From NCBI RefSeq assembly GCF_028714975.1, contig NZ_JAQTLH010000007.1, positions 1 through 64,000 on the forward strand: 64,000 nucleotides of DNA, read 5' to 3'. This document shows, piece after piece, positions 5,910 to 27,093 of the stretch (positions are counted from its first letter, which is position 1; each line of letters opens with the position of its first letter). The translations under genes and the position numbers were made by a program. This DNA comes from Sulfurimonas sp. (GTDB taxonomy: Bacteria > Campylobacterota > Campylobacteria > Campylobacterales > Sulfurimonadaceae). Below the pieces are notes generated by a model. That model saw only the letters and a program-made list of their open reading frames with translations. It was not told where the DNA came from and made no database searches.

Positions 5910-5936
5910 AGTATACGGAAATTATTTCCGTATACT
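5910..5936. terminator. Bidirectional terminator between cytochrome c gene and EI24 gene
   Basis: Perfect 12-bp stem (arm AGTATACGGAAA) with a 3-base loop, starting six bases after the cytochrome c stop and ending at the base before the stop of the convergent gene. It can serve both strands. Confidence 0.85.
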
Positions 5937-17781: not shown

Positions 17782-18795
17782 ATGAGCTATAAACCGCCTT
17801 TTACGATTACATCTAAGATGATTAATCTTGTGAGTGAGATAAGTGAAGCCTTAACAAAAATAGAGGTGTATGAACATACTCTAATAACTCCATATTTAAG
17901 AAAAATAAATCGTATAAAAACATTGGCAGGAACTTTAGAGATAGAGGGAAATTTTTTAGGCGAAGAGAAAATTACAGCTATTTTGGATGGTAAAAGAGTT
18001 TTAGCTACCGTATTGGAATTGGCAGAAGTTAACGGTGCTATAAAAGCTTATGAAAAATTTGAAGAGTATGATTGTTATTCTTTAAATGATTTGCTTAAAG
18101 CTCATAAAATTTTGATGGGAGAAATTTTAACGACAGCCGGAACTTTTAGAAGTGTTAATGTTGGAGTCGGCGGACAAAGCGGAGTAACGCATGTTGCACC
18201 TCCGTTTTACAGAGTGCCGGATTTGATGTGTGATTTGTTTGAGTGGTTAAAAAGTTCAGATGAGCATCCGCTGATAAAAAGCAGCGTATTTCATTATGAG
18301 TTTGAGTTTATTCATCCTTTTAGCGATGGAAACGGCAGAATAGGGCGGCTTTGGCAAAGTGCTATTTTATACAAGTGGAAAAATATTTTTTCTTCAGTGC
18401 CGACTGAGAGCATAGTTAGAGATTATCAAAATAGTTACTATAAAGCTTTGGAAGATTCTACAGAGTTAGGCGAGAGTACACCGTTTATAGAGTTTATGCT
18501 TGAAGTTATTTTAGAATCTATAGAAAAGGTCGGTAATAAGGTCGGTAATAAGGTCGGTAATAAGGTCGGTAGTAAGGTCGGTAATGATTTGAATGAAAAT
18601 CAGAAGTTAATTATTCAAAGTATGAGCCAAAACCCAAAAATATCAGCTAAAAAACTCTCAGATATTGTTGGAATATCGGTTAGAAAGATAGAAGAAAATA
18701 TTTCAAAACTAAAAGAGATGAGAGTTATTGAAAGGGTCGGCGGAACTCGTGGGCATTGGAAGACTATGGTATCTTACAAAAAAACAGAGCAATGA
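17782..18795 (+). CDS. Fic-domain AMP-transferase-like protein with C-terminal winged helix
   Basis: Protein of 337 residues. The Fic motif HPFSDGNGRIGR (His178) is complete, so transfer of AMP or another nucleotide moiety to a target protein is expected. The inhibitory motif (S/T)xxxE(G/N) appears near the N-terminus as TLEIEG (Thr51-Glu55), so this is a class II self-inhibited Fic protein. After the Fic core comes a tetrapeptide linker VGNK repeated about five times (residues 249-268). A winged-helix domain of about 60 residues then follows (AKKLSDIVGISVRKIEENISKL). Family members of this layout are usually stand-alone and of unknown target. It sits between hypD and hypE in place of the usual hyp gene neighbour. 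Confidence 0.92.
   Translation: MSYKPPFTITSKMINLVSEISEALTKIEVYEHTLITPYLRKINRIKTLAGTLEIEGNFLGEEKITAILDGKRVLATVLELAEVNGAIKAYEKFEEYDCYSLNDLLKAHKILMGEILTTAGTFRSVNVGVGGQSGVTHVAPPFYRVPDLMCDLFEWLKSSDEHPLIKSSVFHYEFEFIHPFSDGNGRIGRLWQSAILYKWKNIFSSVPTESIVRDYQNSYYKALEDSTELGESTPFIEFMLEVILESIEKVGNKVGNKVGNKVGSKVGNDLNENQKLIIQSMSQNPKISAKKLSDIVGISVRKIEENISKLKEMRVIERVGGTRGHWKTMVSYKKTEQ
18526..18585 (+). repeat. 12-bp tandem repeat, five units, inside the Fic gene
   Basis: Five consecutive copies of AAGGTCGGTAAT, the fourth with a single A-to-G change, encoding the VGNK linker between the Fic domain and the winged helix. Being a multiple of three, unit gain or loss keeps the frame, so the linker length can vary between strains. 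Confidence 0.95.
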
Positions 18796-21498: not shown

Positions 21499-22518
21499 AT
21501 GCAGTACAGATACATAGGAAAAACGGGGCTTAGAGTAACTTCTATCGGGCTTGGGACAATGAGTTTTGGCAGTTGGAGCGACGAGGCGGAGGCTTTTAGG
21601 ATTATGGATAAGGCGTATGATAGAGGGATTAACTTTTTTGATACCGCCGAACTCTATCCTGTACCGCCGAGGGTTGAAGATGCGGGCATAACCGAGACAA
21701 TAATCGGAAAATGGCTAAAAGGCAAACCAAGAGATAGCATTATTTTAGCTTCAAAAGTCGCAGGTGCCGCAAACGGCTGGTTTGTTCCGCCCATCCGACA
21801 TGGGTATACAGCCATTGATAATTTTCATATTAAAAGAGCAATCGAAGGGAGTTTAAAGCGGCTTCAAACGGATTATATCGACCTCTACCAGATGCATTGG
21901 CCGGATTCAGTCGTACCCATAGAGGAGTCGTTAATGGCTTTTGACGAGCTTATAAAAGAGGGCAAAGTTAGATATATAGGAACTTCAAACGACACCGCTT
22001 ACGGACTCACAAAAGCAAATGAGACTTCAAAACGATTGAGTATTGCAAGATTTGAGTCCATACAAAACAACTTTTCACTGAACAATCCGCGGTTTTTGGA
22101 TGAGCTCTCATATGTGTGCAAAAGAGAGCAGATATCGCTTCTGGCGTACTCACCCATAGCAGGAGGAGTGCTCAGCGGTAAATATAACGGGGAGCTTTAT
22201 CCGCAAAATGCGAGATACTCGGACTATCTCATCAGTAAAAATATTCGTCTAAACTCTCAAGCCGCAAAGTTTGTAAATGAAAAATCACTCAAGTCCACAG
22301 CACGCTATCTTGGTATTGCAAAAAAGCTTGAAATCTCTCCCGCGACTTTGGCAGTAGCCTATACAAAACAGTTTGACTTTGTTGCATCGACGATAATAGG
22401 TGCAAGAAACAGAGAGCAGATGGATGAGTCACTAGCCGCGCTAGATATGACTTTGAGTGAAGAGACCATGAGTGAGATAAAAGCAGTGCAGCAAGAGATA
22501 ATGTACCCGATGGGGTGA
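21499..22518 (+). CDS. Aldo/keto reductase (Tas/YajO-type)
   Basis: NADPH-dependent aldo/keto reductase of 339 residues with a TIM-barrel fold. The catalytic tetrad is visible: Asp and Tyr in FFDTAELYP, Lys in ILASKVAG, and His in DLYQMHWPD. NADPH-binding residues lie in the C-terminal IIGARNREQMDESL. Length and the N-terminal YRYIGKTGLRVTSIGLGTMSFG fit the Tas/YajO group. The substrate cannot be predicted. GAGGAGC precedes the ATG. The last codons and stop (22498-22520) are repeated at 23823-23845, beyond the next two genes. Confidence 0.93.
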   Translation: MQYRYIGKTGLRVTSIGLGTMSFGSWSDEAEAFRIMDKAYDRGINFFDTAELYPVPPRVEDAGITETIIGKWLKGKPRDSIILASKVAGAANGWFVPPIRHGYTAIDNFHIKRAIEGSLKRLQTDYIDLYQMHWPDSVVPIEESLMAFDELIKEGKVRYIGTSNDTAYGLTKANETSKRLSIARFESIQNNFSLNNPRFLDELSYVCKREQISLLAYSPIAGGVLSGKYNGELYPQNARYSDYLISKNIRLNSQAAKFVNEKSLKSTARYLGIAKKLEISPATLAVAYTKQFDFVASTIIGARNREQMDESLAALDMTLSEETMSEIKAVQQEIMYPMG

Positions 22519-22520
22519 GT
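22498..22520 (+). repeat. Direct repeat, copy 1 (3' end of aldo/keto reductase gene)
   Basis: 23-base segment containing the codons for IMYPMG and the stop. It matches 23823-23845 at 22 of 23 positions; the single difference is GGG versus GGA, synonymous in the reductase frame. The two copies bracket the HTH-nucleotidyltransferase module. Confidence 0.9.
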
Positions 22521-22593
22521 GAATCATAAGCTTATACATTTCAGATTTACTTTACAAGTATATGATAACAAAAAATTTTTAATATTTCAGGTA

Positions 22594-22623
22594 TTGACAT
22601 TATAGGCGAATATCGCCTATAAT
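22594..22623 (+). promoter_or_regulatory. Consensus sigma-70 promoter with embedded palindromic operator
   Basis: TTGACA at 22594-22599 and TATAAT at 22618-22623, both perfect, are separated by 18 bases. A perfect inverted repeat with 11-bp arms (ATTATAGGCGA and its complement) and a 3-base centre spans 22599-22623, from the last base of the -35 to the last base of the -10. A protein bound there would exclude RNA polymerase. The HTH protein encoded 25 bases downstream is the obvious candidate for autorepression. Confidence 0.85.
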
Positions 22624-22647
22624 ATTAAAAATAGCAAAGGATTTACT

Positions 22648-23097
22648 ATGACACAGCAACAAATTAGTAAATTACTAGATGTACCAGATAGAACTTTAAG
22701 AGACTGGAAAAAGAATCGCTATAGGCTGTACCATCTACTAGAATCATTAGAGTATGATGAAGCAAAAGAGAAGATCAATGCAGTTGATATTGATGATGTA
22801 GTTGTATTTAATCCACAAAAATACTCACACAATCTTTTTTGGCAGACAAACGAGCAAAGCGAACAAAAGGTTTATTCTATCATCTCGAACTATTTATCGA
22901 GCATGAATGAAAATGATATAAAAACACTATGTGAGCAGTTTGGTAAAAATCTAGTTAGGAGCGTACTCAAAGATAAATATAAAAAGATGTACGCAAAGGG
23001 CTACATTGCTACAAGTGGCATAGACATACCCTTAAGTGGCAGATATGAAGAAAATGGAGTATATAAACAACTGCTAGGCATCATAAATGACTGTTAA
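22648..23097 (+). CDS. HTH protein, likely antitoxin/repressor of nucleotidyltransferase module
   Basis: Protein of 149 residues with an N-terminal helix-turn-helix (TQQQISKLLDVPDRTLRDWKK, about residues 2-22) and an unrecognised remainder. It overlaps the downstream AbiEii-type nucleotidyltransferase gene by 11 bases, so the pair is translationally coupled. By analogy with AbiE systems it would be the antitoxin and transcriptional repressor, but it does not look like the canonical AbiEi winged-helix antitoxin. The palindromic promoter directly upstream fits autoregulation. AAGGA precedes the ATG. Family is not recognised; the antitoxin role is inferred from position. Confidence 0.7.
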   Translation: MTQQQISKLLDVPDRTLRDWKKNRYRLYHLLESLEYDEAKEKINAVDIDDVVVFNPQKYSHNLFWQTNEQSEQKVYSIISNYLSSMNENDIKTLCEQFGKNLVRSVLKDKYKKMYAKGYIATSGIDIPLSGRYEENGVYKQLLGIINDC

Positions 23098-23752
23098 TGT
23101 CAAAAATGCACTAGATAAAATCTGCAACAATGAAATTTTTAACAATGAGCTGTACTTCGTAGGAGGTACGGCTCTGGCTTACTATCTAAACCACCGAATC
23201 TCAGAAGATATAGATATAATCTCTGCTAAAACATTAAATCATAGATATATCATCCCAAGTATGAGCGTTGTTGGAGCCAAAAAACTAGAAGATGAAAATG
23301 TAACTGCTTTGAGATTAGCGGGATTGTTCCCTGATGAGTACATGATAAAGTTTGTGCTAGACAATGTAAAATTAGAGTTTTTTCAGGCAAATCGTCCAAT
23401 CCAAAAAGAGATACTTTCAACCGCTACATTTACAAACTATGAAAACTCAAGATTAAAGATACTTGATGTTAAATCTGTCGCAAAACTAAAAATAGTGGCA
23501 TTGATTATGAGAGAAAAATCAAGGGATTTGTTTGATTTTAGTGCTATATTGGAAAACAAGGTACTGCCTATAGATGAGATTATTGAACTATTTTCTAAAG
23601 TTGATAGTAAAATTAGTTCGGTTGATGGTGTTGTACATTTTATGAAGTTGAAAAAAGAGCCTAAAAATGATGAAGCTGTCTATCTAAGCGAAAGTGATAA
23701 AATGGATTTGAGTTTTGAAGAGATTAAAGAGCGAGTACTTGAAAAAATATAG
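23087..23752 (+). CDS. AbiEii/AbiGii-type nucleotidyltransferase toxin
   Basis: Nucleotidyltransferase of 221 residues resembling the AbiEii/DUF1814 group. The N-terminal active-site motif GGTALAYYLNHRISEDIDII (about residues 26-45) supplies the GG(T) loop and the DxD metal ligands. Later motifs include KLKIVALIMREKSRDLFDF, matching the family's K...R..RDLYD signature. Relatives (AbiEii, MenT) act as toxins by modifying tRNA or by other nucleotidyl transfer, giving phage resistance through growth arrest. The gene is coupled to the HTH gene by overlap. Catalytic residues look intact, so an active enzyme is expected. Confidence 0.82.
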   Translation: MTVNVKNALDKICNNEIFNNELYFVGGTALAYYLNHRISEDIDIISAKTLNHRYIIPSMSVVGAKKLEDENVTALRLAGLFPDEYMIKFVLDNVKLEFFQANRPIQKEILSTATFTNYENSRLKILDVKSVAKLKIVALIMREKSRDLFDFSAILENKVLPIDEIIELFSKVDSKISSVDGVVHFMKLKKEPKNDEAVYLSESDKMDLSFEEIKERVLEKI

Positions 23753-23822
23753 AAAAAATGTATTGTGTACTATGTTGTTAAAAAGTCCTTATTTAAGGCA
23801 TTTGGATGCTGAACAATACAAA

Positions 23823-23845
23823 ATAATGTACCCGATGGGATGAGT
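23823..23845 (+). repeat. Direct repeat, copy 2 (remnant of reductase 3' end)
   Basis: Second copy of the 23-base end of the aldo/keto reductase gene, 71 bases after the nucleotidyltransferase stop. It keeps the IMYPMG-stop reading. Bases further upstream do not match the reductase, so only the tail is duplicated. The rest of 23753-23936 shows nothing beyond this and the promoter region below. Confidence 0.9.
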
Positions 23846-23902
23846 TTTATTTTTATGTAGGGTTTGATTATCCGAAAAAAGAGATTGTTAGAGGGAATGT
23901 GT

Positions 23903-23924
23903 TACAATGACAATATTCTGTCAT
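23903..23924 (+). promoter_or_regulatory. Promoter and inverted repeat of the Phd/ParE-type operon
   Basis: A -10-like TACAAT (23903-23908) overlaps an inverted repeat with 6-bp arms ATGACA (23907-23912) and TGTCAT (23919-23924), 6-base spacer, 13 bases before the antitoxin ATG. Likely antitoxin-binding site, by analogy with other Phd/YefM operons. Confidence 0.5.
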
Positions 23925-23936
23925 AAAGGTTTTTAA

Positions 23937-24191
23937 ATGCAAGCACTAAATTACACAAATGCTAGAAATAGTTTTAAAAGTATCATAGAAAATGTGTGTG
24001 ATAACAATGAAGAAGTGATAGTTACAACAAAAAATAATAAGTCGGTCGTAATCATTTCACTTGATGAGTATAATGCCACACATACAAAACTAAAGCAAGA
24101 TGTACAAAATGCTATAAAAGATATTCAAAAGGGTGACTTTTTGGATATTGACGATGCCTTTGAGTTAGCGAAAAAGTCCTATCGTGCATAA
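23937..24191 (+). CDS. Phd/YefM-family antitoxin
   Basis: Antitoxin of 84 residues. The N-terminal half has the Phd/YefM pattern: ALNYTNARNSFKSIIENV, then EEVIVTTKNNKSVVIISLDEYNA. The C-terminal tail would wrap and neutralise the toxin. It overlaps the toxin gene by eight bases. An AAAGGT Shine-Dalgarno precedes the ATG. The family both neutralises the toxin and represses its own promoter, which agrees with the inverted repeat just upstream. Confidence 0.87.
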   Translation: MQALNYTNARNSFKSIIENVCDNNEEVIVTTKNNKSVVIISLDEYNATHTKLKQDVQNAIKDIQKGDFLDIDDAFELAKKSYRA

Positions 24192-24471
24192 AATAGTTTT
24201 TTCAAAAATAGCAGCTCTTAGCTTAGTAGAACAAGCTAAATATATTTTTGAACAAACAAAAAATGAAGATGTAGCCGATAGATACTTAGATAAGATGAAA
24301 AACTACATCATCCAAACGCTCTCTAACTTCCCAAAATCAGGAAGACCTACGGAAGAACTTTTATCAAATACCAGAAAACTAGTCTATCAAGGATACTCTA
24401 TAATTTATAGTGTTTCTGACACGCAGATAGAGATTTTAGTGATTTTTAGAGAAAACTTGCCTAAGTTATGA
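24184..24471 (+). CDS. RelE/ParE-family toxin
   Basis: Toxin of 95 residues with the ParE-like core: FSKIAALSLVEQAKYIFEQT, RPTEELLSNTRKLVYQGYSIIYSV and IEILVIFRENLP. The start is GTG at 24184, overlapping the antitoxin by eight bases; no ATG is available nearby. ParE members inhibit DNA gyrase and RelE members cleave mRNA in the ribosome. The GRP and RKLVYQGYSIIY pattern favours ParE, but the target is not certain. Confidence 0.85.
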   Translation: MHKIVFSKIAALSLVEQAKYIFEQTKNEDVADRYLDKMKNYIIQTLSNFPKSGRPTEELLSNTRKLVYQGYSIIYSVSDTQIEILVIFRENLPKL

Positions 24472-24500
24472 AAAATGTAATCTAGGATACGCCGTTATGA

Positions 24501-24506
24501 TATAAT
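24501..24506 (+). promoter_or_regulatory. -10 box for MntA-like gene
   Basis: TATAAT 24 bases before the ATG at 24530, followed by an AAAGGA Shine-Dalgarno. Confidence 0.6.
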
Positions 24507-24529
24507 TTTTGAATGTTTAAAGGAAAAAG

Positions 24530-24844
24530 ATGAGAGCAACAAAAGAGAGTATATTGCACTATTTAATAGAATTAAAAGCAGAGTTCTCAAAAGATGGCAT
24601 TACGACATTTGCACTTTTTGGAAGTTTCGCCAAAGATACGCATGGTGTATATAGCGATATAGATGTAGCCATTGCAAAAAGAAGCGACTACCTATCTCAC
24701 AACTCTTCTTACTCCTATTTCGAGACTATCTCAAAGATTAAAGATAAAATAAGAAAAAAATTTCACCGCAATATAGATATATTTGACCTTGACAGCCAAA
24801 GCCCATTTAAAGAGACAATACAAAAGGAACTTATATATGTTTAG
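24530..24844 (+). CDS. MntA-type minimal nucleotidyltransferase antitoxin
   Basis: Minimal nucleotidyltransferase of 104 residues with the motif FALFGSFAKDTHGVYSDIDVAIA (about residues 27-49), giving the GSxA loop and the DxD metal site. A third carboxylate is likely in NIDIFDL. In HepT/MntA systems such proteins AMPylate and neutralise a HEPN-domain RNase toxin. No HepT gene is next to it: upstream is the ParE gene, and downstream only two tiny ORFs remain. The next ORF begins inside its 3' end, as a HepT partner would, but stops after 29 codons. It is therefore an orphan or the remnant of a broken pair. Confidence 0.82.
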   Translation: MRATKESILHYLIELKAEFSKDGITTFALFGSFAKDTHGVYSDIDVAIAKRSDYLSHNSSYSYFETISKIKDKIRKKFHRNIDIFDLDSQSPFKETIQKELIYV

Positions 24845-24926
24845 TCAAAAAGCCATAGAAACACAAGGACTTCCTATCATAAAAGAGTCTGTGGATAAAA
24901 TAATGAAAATGAGAGAGGATTTATAA
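24837..24926 (+). pseudogene. 29-codon ORF, possible truncated partner gene
   Basis: ATG at 24837 overlaps the MntA stop and has AAGGA eight bases upstream, the arrangement expected of a coupled toxin partner. The reading frame (beginning MFSQKAIETQG) ends at TAA after 29 codons. No HEPN motif (RxxxxxH) is present. Either a small real peptide or the start of a gene lost by deletion; not recognised. Confidence 0.4.
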
Positions 24927-24927
24927 A

Positions 24928-25029
24928 ATGCAGACAATAAACCTAAAAATAGACGATGCTTTTTTTCCGTATTTTAAAGCTATTGACATAATCGGCGGAG
25001 CTCGTAGGTATTTGGAGATAGTAAAATAA
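24928..25029 (+). pseudogene. 33-codon ORF, possible chimeric remnant
   Basis: Begins one base after the previous stop, with GAGG at a usable distance. The first 17 residues (MQTINLKIDDAFFPYFK) look like the start of a small antitoxin-type protein, while the remainder (IIGGARRYLEIVK) reads as unrelated. It ends 15 bases before the KAP gene. A deletion junction is likely; the family is not certain. Confidence 0.35.
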
Positions 25030-25044
25030 TTATGAGGATAAAAA

Positions 25045-27075
25045 ATGCGACATCGTGACATACCAAAAAAAAATATAGAAGATGGTGATGATTTAAAGTT
25101 TGCTCCATATGCTTCAAGGGTGGCTCAAGGGATATTGAATTATTCTCAAAATGAAACATTTATTATATCCCTTGAAGGAGAGTGGGGCAGCGGTAAGACT
25201 AGCGTTATAAATTTTATTAAAGAGGATTTAAAAAAGCAACAAGAAAAAGTTGAAATTTTAGATTTTAATCCTTGGCTAATCACGGGTATAGAACAAATCA
25301 TAAAAGTTTTTTTTGGTGAGCTGATAAAGGTTTTATCATACGGTTCATTTGCTGTAAAATGGAATGAAGATATAAAAAAAGATTTGCAAACATTGGCATC
25401 ATTGATTTTGCCTGATAATATCAATATAGATGTAGGTTTAATTAAGCTTGGATATAAACCAAAAGATGTTTTATTGCCAAAAAGTGAAAAGACCTTAGCA
25501 CAAATCAAAGAAAAAATAAATAAATATTTAAGAGACTCTGGTAAAAAAATAGTTGTTATAATAGATGATATTGATAGACTTACGGATAAAGAGACCGAGC
25601 TTATATTTAGACTTGCAAAAGGGATTGCAGATTTTGATAATCTTATCTATATACTACTTTATGATAAAAAAGTAGTGACAAAATCACTTGAAAAGTTCAA
25701 ATCGGAGAATGGTCAAAAATATCTTGAAAAGATAGTTCAGTATCCGCTAACTATTCCCAAAGCACATAAAATTAAGATAAAAAATTTATTATTTAAAGAA
25801 CTTGATAAGATACTTAAAAGACTCCATTTTAAAAAAGTAAAATATATTTTTAATCAAGAAACTTGGAATCAAGTTCATTTAGTAATTGATAAATATATAA
25901 AAACAGTAAGGGATATAAACCAGATAGCAAATATTATCTCATTTGAATATCCAATAATTGCAACGGAAGTTAATTTTACAGATTTTTTTATAATTTCACT
26001 TATTAAACTAAAAAACCATACTCTTTATGAATTAATTCAAAATAAGCCTAATAATTTTTTTATTGATGAACATAAAACTTATGAACCTGAAAAAGAGGAA
26101 AAAAGAATCATAGAAAATTTTGAAAATAATATGAAAGATTTTCATGAATTTAAAGATTTGTTGGAAATAATTTTTCCTGTATTTAGTGAAGATGATTATA
26201 GAAGCTCTGACAGTCATAAAGCAAAATATATTAGTGATATTTATTATTTTGAGAATTATTTTTCATTTTCAGTATCTGATGATAAATTGTCAATGAAAGA
26301 ATATTATGAGATAAAAAATTTATTTATCAGTAGTGATTTTGAAGCATTTAAAGAGATTATGCTAAAAGCTGATAAAGAGCAAAAAAGTACATATTTTTTG
26401 GATATGTTTGAGGAATTTGATGAACATATAAAAAAAGAAGAAATAGAAAATGTATTCTTCAACGCATTGAAAATGACAACGAAAGATAATCTATTATCTT
26501 TGCTGCTTAATGTAAGTAGTAGCTATCAAGAACTGGCATATGATGTTTTAGTTAAACATCCAGAACTAGATGAATTCATATTAAATTTTTATAAAACTAA
26601 TAAAGAAGTAGATTTTAAACTAAAAGTTAATTTATTACAAAAAATAAATAAAGAAATAAAAGAAGCACATAGTGATAAAAAGCTAAAAATTTTAAATAAA
26701 ACACTTTTAGAACTTAATAGCCTTGTAAAAAAAGAACTAGAATCTATCAGATTTGAGAATATTGGTAATTATAAAGGAACTCTAGGTTTAATAGGTCGTT
26801 TTGATTTGTTTGGAGCTTCTATTGATAAATTGAAAGAGGATATAAACAAAAACATATTTAAATCAACTGATAATTTCTTTAAAATATTAAATATATTTAA
26901 GGGTACTAATATTGTTAATGGTAGCTATGAAGAACACTATATATCAAAAGAAAGTCTTGAAAAACTATTAGAATTAAAAGAAGTAGAAAACTATATAGAT
27001 AATTTGGATAAATCAGATTTAACAAATGAACAAAATACTTTATTAACCTATTGGAAGAATAATTATGGATGGTAA
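25045..27075 (+). CDS. KAP-family P-loop NTPase
   Basis: Protein of 676 residues in the KAP NTPase family. Walker A GEWGSGKTSV is near residue 46. The KAP feature EILDFNPWLITG follows, and Walker B reads VVIIDDIDRLT near residue 170. The C-terminal 400 residues are helical, charged and unrecognised. The paired hydrophobic segments seen in many bacterial KAP proteins are not obvious, so it may be soluble. Some family members (PifA) exclude phage, and its position after several toxin-antitoxin genes fits a defence role, but that is inference. The gene is strikingly AT-rich compared with hypE, 18 bases downstream, suggesting recent acquisition. GAGGA precedes the ATG. Confidence 0.85.
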   Translation: MRHRDIPKKNIEDGDDLKFAPYASRVAQGILNYSQNETFIISLEGEWGSGKTSVINFIKEDLKKQQEKVEILDFNPWLITGIEQIIKVFFGELIKVLSYGSFAVKWNEDIKKDLQTLASLILPDNINIDVGLIKLGYKPKDVLLPKSEKTLAQIKEKINKYLRDSGKKIVVIIDDIDRLTDKETELIFRLAKGIADFDNLIYILLYDKKVVTKSLEKFKSENGQKYLEKIVQYPLTIPKAHKIKIKNLLFKELDKILKRLHFKKVKYIFNQETWNQVHLVIDKYIKTVRDINQIANIISFEYPIIATEVNFTDFFIISLIKLKNHTLYELIQNKPNNFFIDEHKTYEPEKEEKRIIENFENNMKDFHEFKDLLEIIFPVFSEDDYRSSDSHKAKYISDIYYFENYFSFSVSDDKLSMKEYYEIKNLFISSDFEAFKEIMLKADKEQKSTYFLDMFEEFDEHIKKEEIENVFFNALKMTTKDNLLSLLLNVSSSYQELAYDVLVKHPELDEFILNFYKTNKEVDFKLKVNLLQKINKEIKEAHSDKKLKILNKTLLELNSLVKKELESIRFENIGNYKGTLGLIGRFDLFGASIDKLKEDINKNIFKSTDNFFKILNIFKGTNIVNGSYEEHYISKESLEKLLELKEVENYIDNLDKSDLTNEQNTLLTYWKNNYGW

Positions 27076-27093
27076 ATATATAAGGATAAATCA

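Follow-up and report, generated by a model that had tools for sequence, protein, structure and literature searches.

What reads a palindrome that fills a near-consensus promoter ahead of the genes for an HTH protein and a nucleotidyltransferase, and what kind of operon does such a promoter serve? In the window (the whole stretch of Sulfurimonas sp. DNA analysed, 64,000 nucleotides), the locus is very probably a promoter under self-regulation, serving an AbiE-like toxin–antitoxin operon gained by horizontal transfer, with the HTH protein, P0001, as the predicted autorepressor acting on the palindrome. The features concerned are as follows.

22594..22599, + strand: -35 hexamer TTGACA, a hexamer also found in 17 of 24 close homologues
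22618..22623, + strand: -10 hexamer TATAAT, which overlaps the right arm of the putative operator and is also found in 23 of 24 close homologues
22599..22623, unstranded: putative operator palindrome ATTATAGGCGA-ATA-TCGCCTATAAT, conserved core TAGGCG-n5-CGCCTA, dyad centre 22611
22648..23097, + strand: HTH protein P0001 (149 aa), proposed autorepressor and antitoxin, with the HTH at residues 3–23 and a separate C-terminal domain at about residues 46–149
22687..22716, + strand: recognition-helix codons, residues 14–23 (DRTLRDWKKN), from the structure model and mutual information
23087..23752, + strand: AbiEii-family nucleotidyltransferase P0002 (221 aa), proposed toxin, PF08843, motif GGTAL...SEDID

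The sequence-only reading of this DNA had described TTGACA, an 18-bp spacer and TATAAT, and these were found exactly at 22594–22599 and 22618–22623; the palindrome likewise runs, as had been written, from the last -35 base (22599) to the last -10 base (22623). It is perfect, with 11-bp arms around a 3-bp centre, fills the gap between the hexamers, includes the -10 and has its dyad centre (22611) 7 bp upstream of the -10. Consensus at both hexamers had also been called rare, which is true of the window (a single TTGACA-N16..19-TATAAT, where chance predicts 0.17 and 16% of shuffles contain one) but not of the whole genome, where 16 such sites (spacers 16–18) were found versus 2 for a reversed control. 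By itself, the double consensus is weak evidence, as it is not very improbable. The perfect palindrome, in turn, exceeds chance (five distinct perfect inverted repeats in the window with arms of at least 11 and loops of up to 9, versus one in total across 12 Markov resamples), and we regard its conservation across close homologues, described below, as the decisive evidence. Most promoters of Campylobacter jejuni lack a clear -35 and carry a periodic A/T-rich pattern with an extended -10 (PMC3656092); the consensus -35 may have been retained here because the operator occupies the space of such a pattern.

Both products of the operon were then characterized. P0001 gave no match above any Pfam or NCBIfam cutoff, and no AbiEi match was found in Pfam either for P0001 (E up to 1) or for the other HTH subfamilies (E up to 0.1). 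Its structure model (pLDDT 89) opens straight into a bare, minimal N-terminal HTH (residues 3–23) without a wing, in which residues 14–23 form the second helix, that is, the recognition helix. Neither Foldseek nor VIA returned a meaningful fold match for P0001, which does not imply a novel fold; no recognized fold was found for its C-terminal domain, and nothing convincing came from the PDB when it was searched by sequence with P0001, P0002 or the profile of the toxin. From its position and co-occurrence, the C-terminal domain would be the antitoxin part. P0002 belongs to the AbiEii/DUF1814 family (58.8 bits against PF08843, cutoff 22.5) and is matched by 15 PADLOC AbiEii models. Examined for the nucleotidyltransferase motif hG[G/S]x(9-13, longer in AbiEii)DhD together with an arginine in motif II, it was found to carry both (VGGTALAYYLNHRISEDID), with G26, G27, R37, D41 and D43 invariant in 13 intact homologues. 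Its top PDB fold matches were a putative nucleotidyltransferase of H. pylori (4ok0, the best match; E 1.1e-5, TM 0.50, 18% identity), which we take to be JHP933, and MenT1 (8an5). The predicted toxin is of the AbiE/MenT kind and, by analogy with MenT, would probably act by tRNA nucleotidylation. The HTH and nucleotidyltransferase genes overlap by 11 bp, their start-to-start offset is 439 in the close homologues checked (bar one start call), and the layout is that generally expected of an autorepressed toxin–antitoxin operon: two genes, the DNA-binding one first, and a palindrome overlapping the promoter.

Searching 228 genomes of the same family with the HTH protein gave 17 further good matches (64–92% identity over all or most of the length), as well as fragments of a second copy in the window's own genome; more homologues came from Arcobacter, Sulfurospirillum and other Campylobacterota. 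We grouped as close homologues those with readable upstream sequence (n = 24, including the window's own). Aligning their upstream regions, the check that had been proposed for this site, revealed the -10-fused palindrome at the same place in 24 of 24, with the conserved core TAGGCGn5CGCCTATAAT (TAGGCG-n5-CGCCTA plus the -10). The outermost bases of the left arm, which bring the window copy to a perfect 11 bp, are particular to it and unconserved in relatives, as is its 18-bp spacer (17 between TTGACA/TTGACT and the -10 in the close homologues), and ahead of the -35 the loci have unrelated sequences. A scan of the 228 genomes for AGGCGNNNNNCGCCTATAAT (AGGCGn5CGCCTATAAT) recovered 15 distinct sites, all 15 directly upstream of the HTH gene, compared with one site for the reversed control pattern. 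Palindromic operators within promoters are common for host repressors, so this one might belong to a host regulator, with the module plugged into an existing regulon. We consider that very unlikely, since the core site occurs in these genomes only before the HTH gene and never before host genes, its bases vary together with the recognition helix of the protein encoded next to it, and homologues of the C-domain that carry another DNA-binding domain have no such palindrome (the last two points are taken up below).

To follow the site beyond close homologues, 70 distinct HTH relatives were gathered and a register test was applied to 37 representatives (HTH clusters at 85%). A per-locus test with a free palindrome centre is uninformative, since chance palindromes of the same quality arise in AT-rich upstream regions, and it was replaced by a fixed register relative to the -10. 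Most distant HTH relatives also have a palindrome fused to the -10, centred 7 bp upstream of it and made of other letters; in three further cluster representatives it lies 2 bp nearer the -10. Across the 37 representatives, 64% of pairs were complementary at the fixed register versus 48% or less at any other, and pairs 3, 5 and 6 were compensated left to right through several base-pair types (column shuffling, P < 0.0005). Some loci have weak palindromes despite the HTH (L108, L026 and L126; 2–3 of 6 pairs), and no recognizable operator was found in a few HTH relatives (L151, L153 and L158). In the RTLRSWK subfamily (L154, L156, L157, L118 and L124), the -10-fused palindrome is accompanied by a second one just downstream (CGGCAGATATTGCCG), an arrangement that suggests two-site repression. 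A perfect inverted repeat can also form a stem, and the palindrome might function as an RNA element (5' hairpin, attenuator or terminator); the chance of this is very small, however, given that no T-run follows it, that its register to the -10 is fixed and that, judging by the -10 (22618–22623), transcription would start downstream of it and leave it out of the RNA.

The letters of the palindrome follow the recognition helix of the protein encoded next to it: TTCCGATATTCGGA stands upstream of STLSDW proteins, CGGCG...CGCC upstream of RTLRDWKxGxR proteins, GGCAnATATTGCC upstream of RTLRSW proteins, AGCCGATATTCGGCT and AGACGATATTCGGCT upstream of K18 proteins, and ACGATTATCGT or ACGATATTCGT upstream of N18 proteins. 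Mutual information with the half-site bases was highest for residues 18 and 15, then 21, 13, 3 and 19, such that helix residues 15, 18, 19 and 21 co-vary with operator bases; kinship inflates these statistics, and z values of about 4 to 5 were also seen for residues beyond the helix. Because all residues share one phylogeny, the fact that those of the helix stand out serves as an internal control, not a full correction for kinship. These associations would be accounted for by a recognition code in which R15/R18 pair with CC, S15/S18 with GG(A/T), K18 with GGC and N18 with TA, and in which the inner C becomes T where residue 19 is S or N. If so, an R15S/R18S variant of P0001 would shift its preference from CGCC to CGGA half-sites (the TTCCGATATTCGGATATAAT promoter), and diversification of specificity could prevent cross-repression between co-resident modules.

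Together, the position of the palindrome, its conservation in 24 of 24 close homologues, its exclusivity to the HTH gene, its compensated co-variation with the recognition helix and its absence from C-domain homologues with other DNA-binding domains make it the predicted operator of an autorepressor, and repression by the HTH protein, as first proposed, gains strong support from the sequences. Beyond these patterns, we infer strong transcription from the promoter, binding and tight repression by P0001, neutralization through its C-domain, toxicity of the nucleotidyltransferase and any part in phage defence. P0001 would bind the palindrome through two symmetrically paired HTH domains and, once bound, would cover the -10 and block RNA polymerase; the near-consensus promoter would fire only when the repressor is scarce, re-supplying the antitoxin first and then, by overlapping translation, the nucleotidyltransferase toxin.

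Comparisons among relatives suggest that this operon is built of two parts, an N-terminal HTH with its operator and a C-terminal domain with its toxin. P0001 and its counterpart at locus L117 agree in the HTH (62% over 40 residues) and in having the CGCC half-site; they do not share the C-domain, and the toxins of the two loci correspond only in a short segment at the catalytic motif. Conversely, P0001 and L189 have a common C-domain (44% over 105 residues) and toxin (52% over 219) and different DNA-binding domains. In 11 proteins that join the P0001 C-domain to another N-terminal domain, no -10-fused palindrome was found (at most 4 of 6 pairs, mostly 0–3), and several of the C-domain homologues with another DNA-binding domain (L109–L112 and L189) have a different conserved promoter motif, TTGACAAACGGGACA, followed by a -10; this motif is possibly their own operator. 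On the basis of L117, L189 and these 11 comparisons, the operator appears to travel with the HTH and the toxin with the C-domain, and the two pairs behave as exchangeable blocks. The order is operator, HTH, C-domain and toxin, and a single crossover within the first gene would therefore swap the blocks cleanly. Such a crossover inside the antitoxin gene would keep the repressor matched to its operator and the antitoxin matched to its toxin, which suggests how toxins could be swapped without regulatory damage: the operator lies beside the DNA-binding domain and the toxin beside the neutralizing domain. More broadly, we tentatively propose, at a little under an even chance, an unannotated superfamily of Campylobacterota HTH antitoxins, with two exchangeable blocks in a fixed order and a residue-to-base recognition code.

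The operon had also been read as an addiction or defence module acquired from outside, and its acquisition from outside is supported: the module is patchily distributed among relatives, its flanks are unrelated between loci, relatives have an empty site, and the window's genome holds two copies. The aldo/keto reductase gene and hypE that bracket it in the window adjoin each other in L073 and L076; relative to these two, the entire block from 22519 to 27093 is inserted, and contains, besides the HTH–AbiEii pair and another of Phd/ParE type, an MntA-like gene and one for a PifA-related KAP NTPase (PADLOC 6e-72). Searches found no relatives of the module in phage records and viral contigs, and three partial matches in plasmids. 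A direct repeat flanks the module.

22498..22520, + strand: direct repeat, left copy ATAATGTACCCGATGGGGTGAGT, 23 bp, at the 3' end of the aldo/keto reductase gene
23823..23845, + strand: direct repeat, right copy ATAATGTACCCGATGGGATGAGT, 22 of 23 identical

The right copy is followed by the apparent 3' end of a sixA-like gene (GGGTTTGATTATCCGAAAAAA); in relatives L069–L071, aldo/keto reductase and sixA-like genes adjoin each other. The repeat was considered as a general target-site duplication and rejected, other loci having no equivalent save L038, with a tRNA-like repeat, and L043, with a weaker one. This 23-bp repeat, and the fact that homology between loci starts near the -35, might point to the palindrome as a recombination or integration site at the left end of a mobile cassette, its likeness to a promoter being secondary. 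That is extremely unlikely, however: the right end has no copy of the palindrome, the register to TATAAT is fixed while the arms vary with the HTH, the module encodes no recombinase, and loci with enough flanking sequence have, apart from those two exceptions, no equivalent of the flanking repeat.

As for the addiction claim, the second protein is a predicted AbiEii-family toxin and broken modules lose it while keeping the HTH gene, which is how addiction modules decay. The second copy in the window's genome is split by a contig break (127-base overlap), with an intact HTH gene and a toxin (L032, G000 contig C8) interrupted within the catalytic motif; the cut toxin is followed by a P-loop kinase gene resembling zeta-toxin-type proteins. 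At six further loci (L006, L101, L028, L147, L188 and L114) the HTH gene is intact and the toxin broken or missing, for a tally of seven loci with a broken toxin and intact HTH gene versus none with the reverse. This pattern agrees with a toxin that does harm when its partner is absent, although 7 versus 0 is modest and the toxin gene is the longer. Several broken toxins, and a fold relative (JHP933) with no antitoxin described in its paper (PMC4125220), would also suit an autoregulated operon that is no addiction or defence module, its nucleotidyltransferase being housekeeping or inactive. This is unlikely, in that the catalytic motif is invariant in the 13 intact homologues, the distribution is patchy and mobile, decay hits only the toxin, and other toxin–antitoxin pairs adjoin the module. 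In one of its neighbours (24530–24926), the MntA-like nucleotidyltransferase is followed only by a 29-aa open reading frame (24837–24926), possibly the remnant of a HepT-like partner, with the antitoxin kept and the toxin lost.

The predicted toxin–antitoxin operon can be set beside three known systems. JHP933 of Helicobacter pylori, from the same phylum, is presumably the protein behind the best fold match of P0002 (4ok0). It differs in that its paper describes no HTH partner, operator or antitoxin (PMC4125220). Autorepression is established for the antitoxin of AbiE (AbiEi–AbiEii, type IV, Streptococcus agalactiae; Dy 2014, PMC3985639) and for Rv2827c, which acts via inverted repeats overlapping its own promoter (PMC7319586), and the principle is therefore already known. 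Like AbiE, the module has a DUF1814/AbiEii nucleotidyltransferase second, a two-domain DNA-binding protein first and inverted repeats in the promoter (PMC3985639); unlike AbiE, P0001 is by Pfam not an AbiEi-family (COG5340/COG4861) winged HTH and has a different C-domain, and where AbiE has two 23-bp inverted repeats 3 bp apart, the module has a single -10-fused palindrome of about 17 bp. Because the module has neither the AbiEi antitoxin family nor the two-repeat operator layout, we do not file it as AbiE. With Rv2827c–Rv2826c/MenAT of Mycobacterium tuberculosis it has in common a DUF1814 toxin, MenT1 being among the best fold matches of P0002 (PMC7319586, PMC11375011), but the antitoxins there are AbiEi-like, or small and without a DNA-binding domain (MenA1; PMC7319586, PMC11375011), and Rv2827c has four repeats and negative cooperativity (PMC7319586). 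The module would nevertheless be regulated as AbiE is, with an AbiEii-type toxin and a non-AbiEi, HTH-first antitoxin, and the interpretation first given for the site is largely supported. This antitoxin family, its single -10-fused operator and its co-varying specificity are not described in the literature that we found.

Such a family would hold dozens of natural repressor–operator pairs in one promoter frame, differing at few helix residues and base pairs, and could offer ready-made orthogonal repressors. It would likewise be a natural experiment in which specificity shifts while self-regulation persists, showing joint change of repressor and target site in nature, and many AbiEii partners currently called hypothetical could be annotated through it.

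Elsewhere in the window, 17782–18795 encodes a Fic-family protein with a run of KVGN tetrapeptide repeats (KVGNKVGNKVGNKVGSKVGN) ahead of a winged-helix domain. Further perfect inverted repeats with arms of at least 11 lie at 5910–5936, 40646, 46514 and 52190, the first of them between converging genes and resembling an ordinary terminator.
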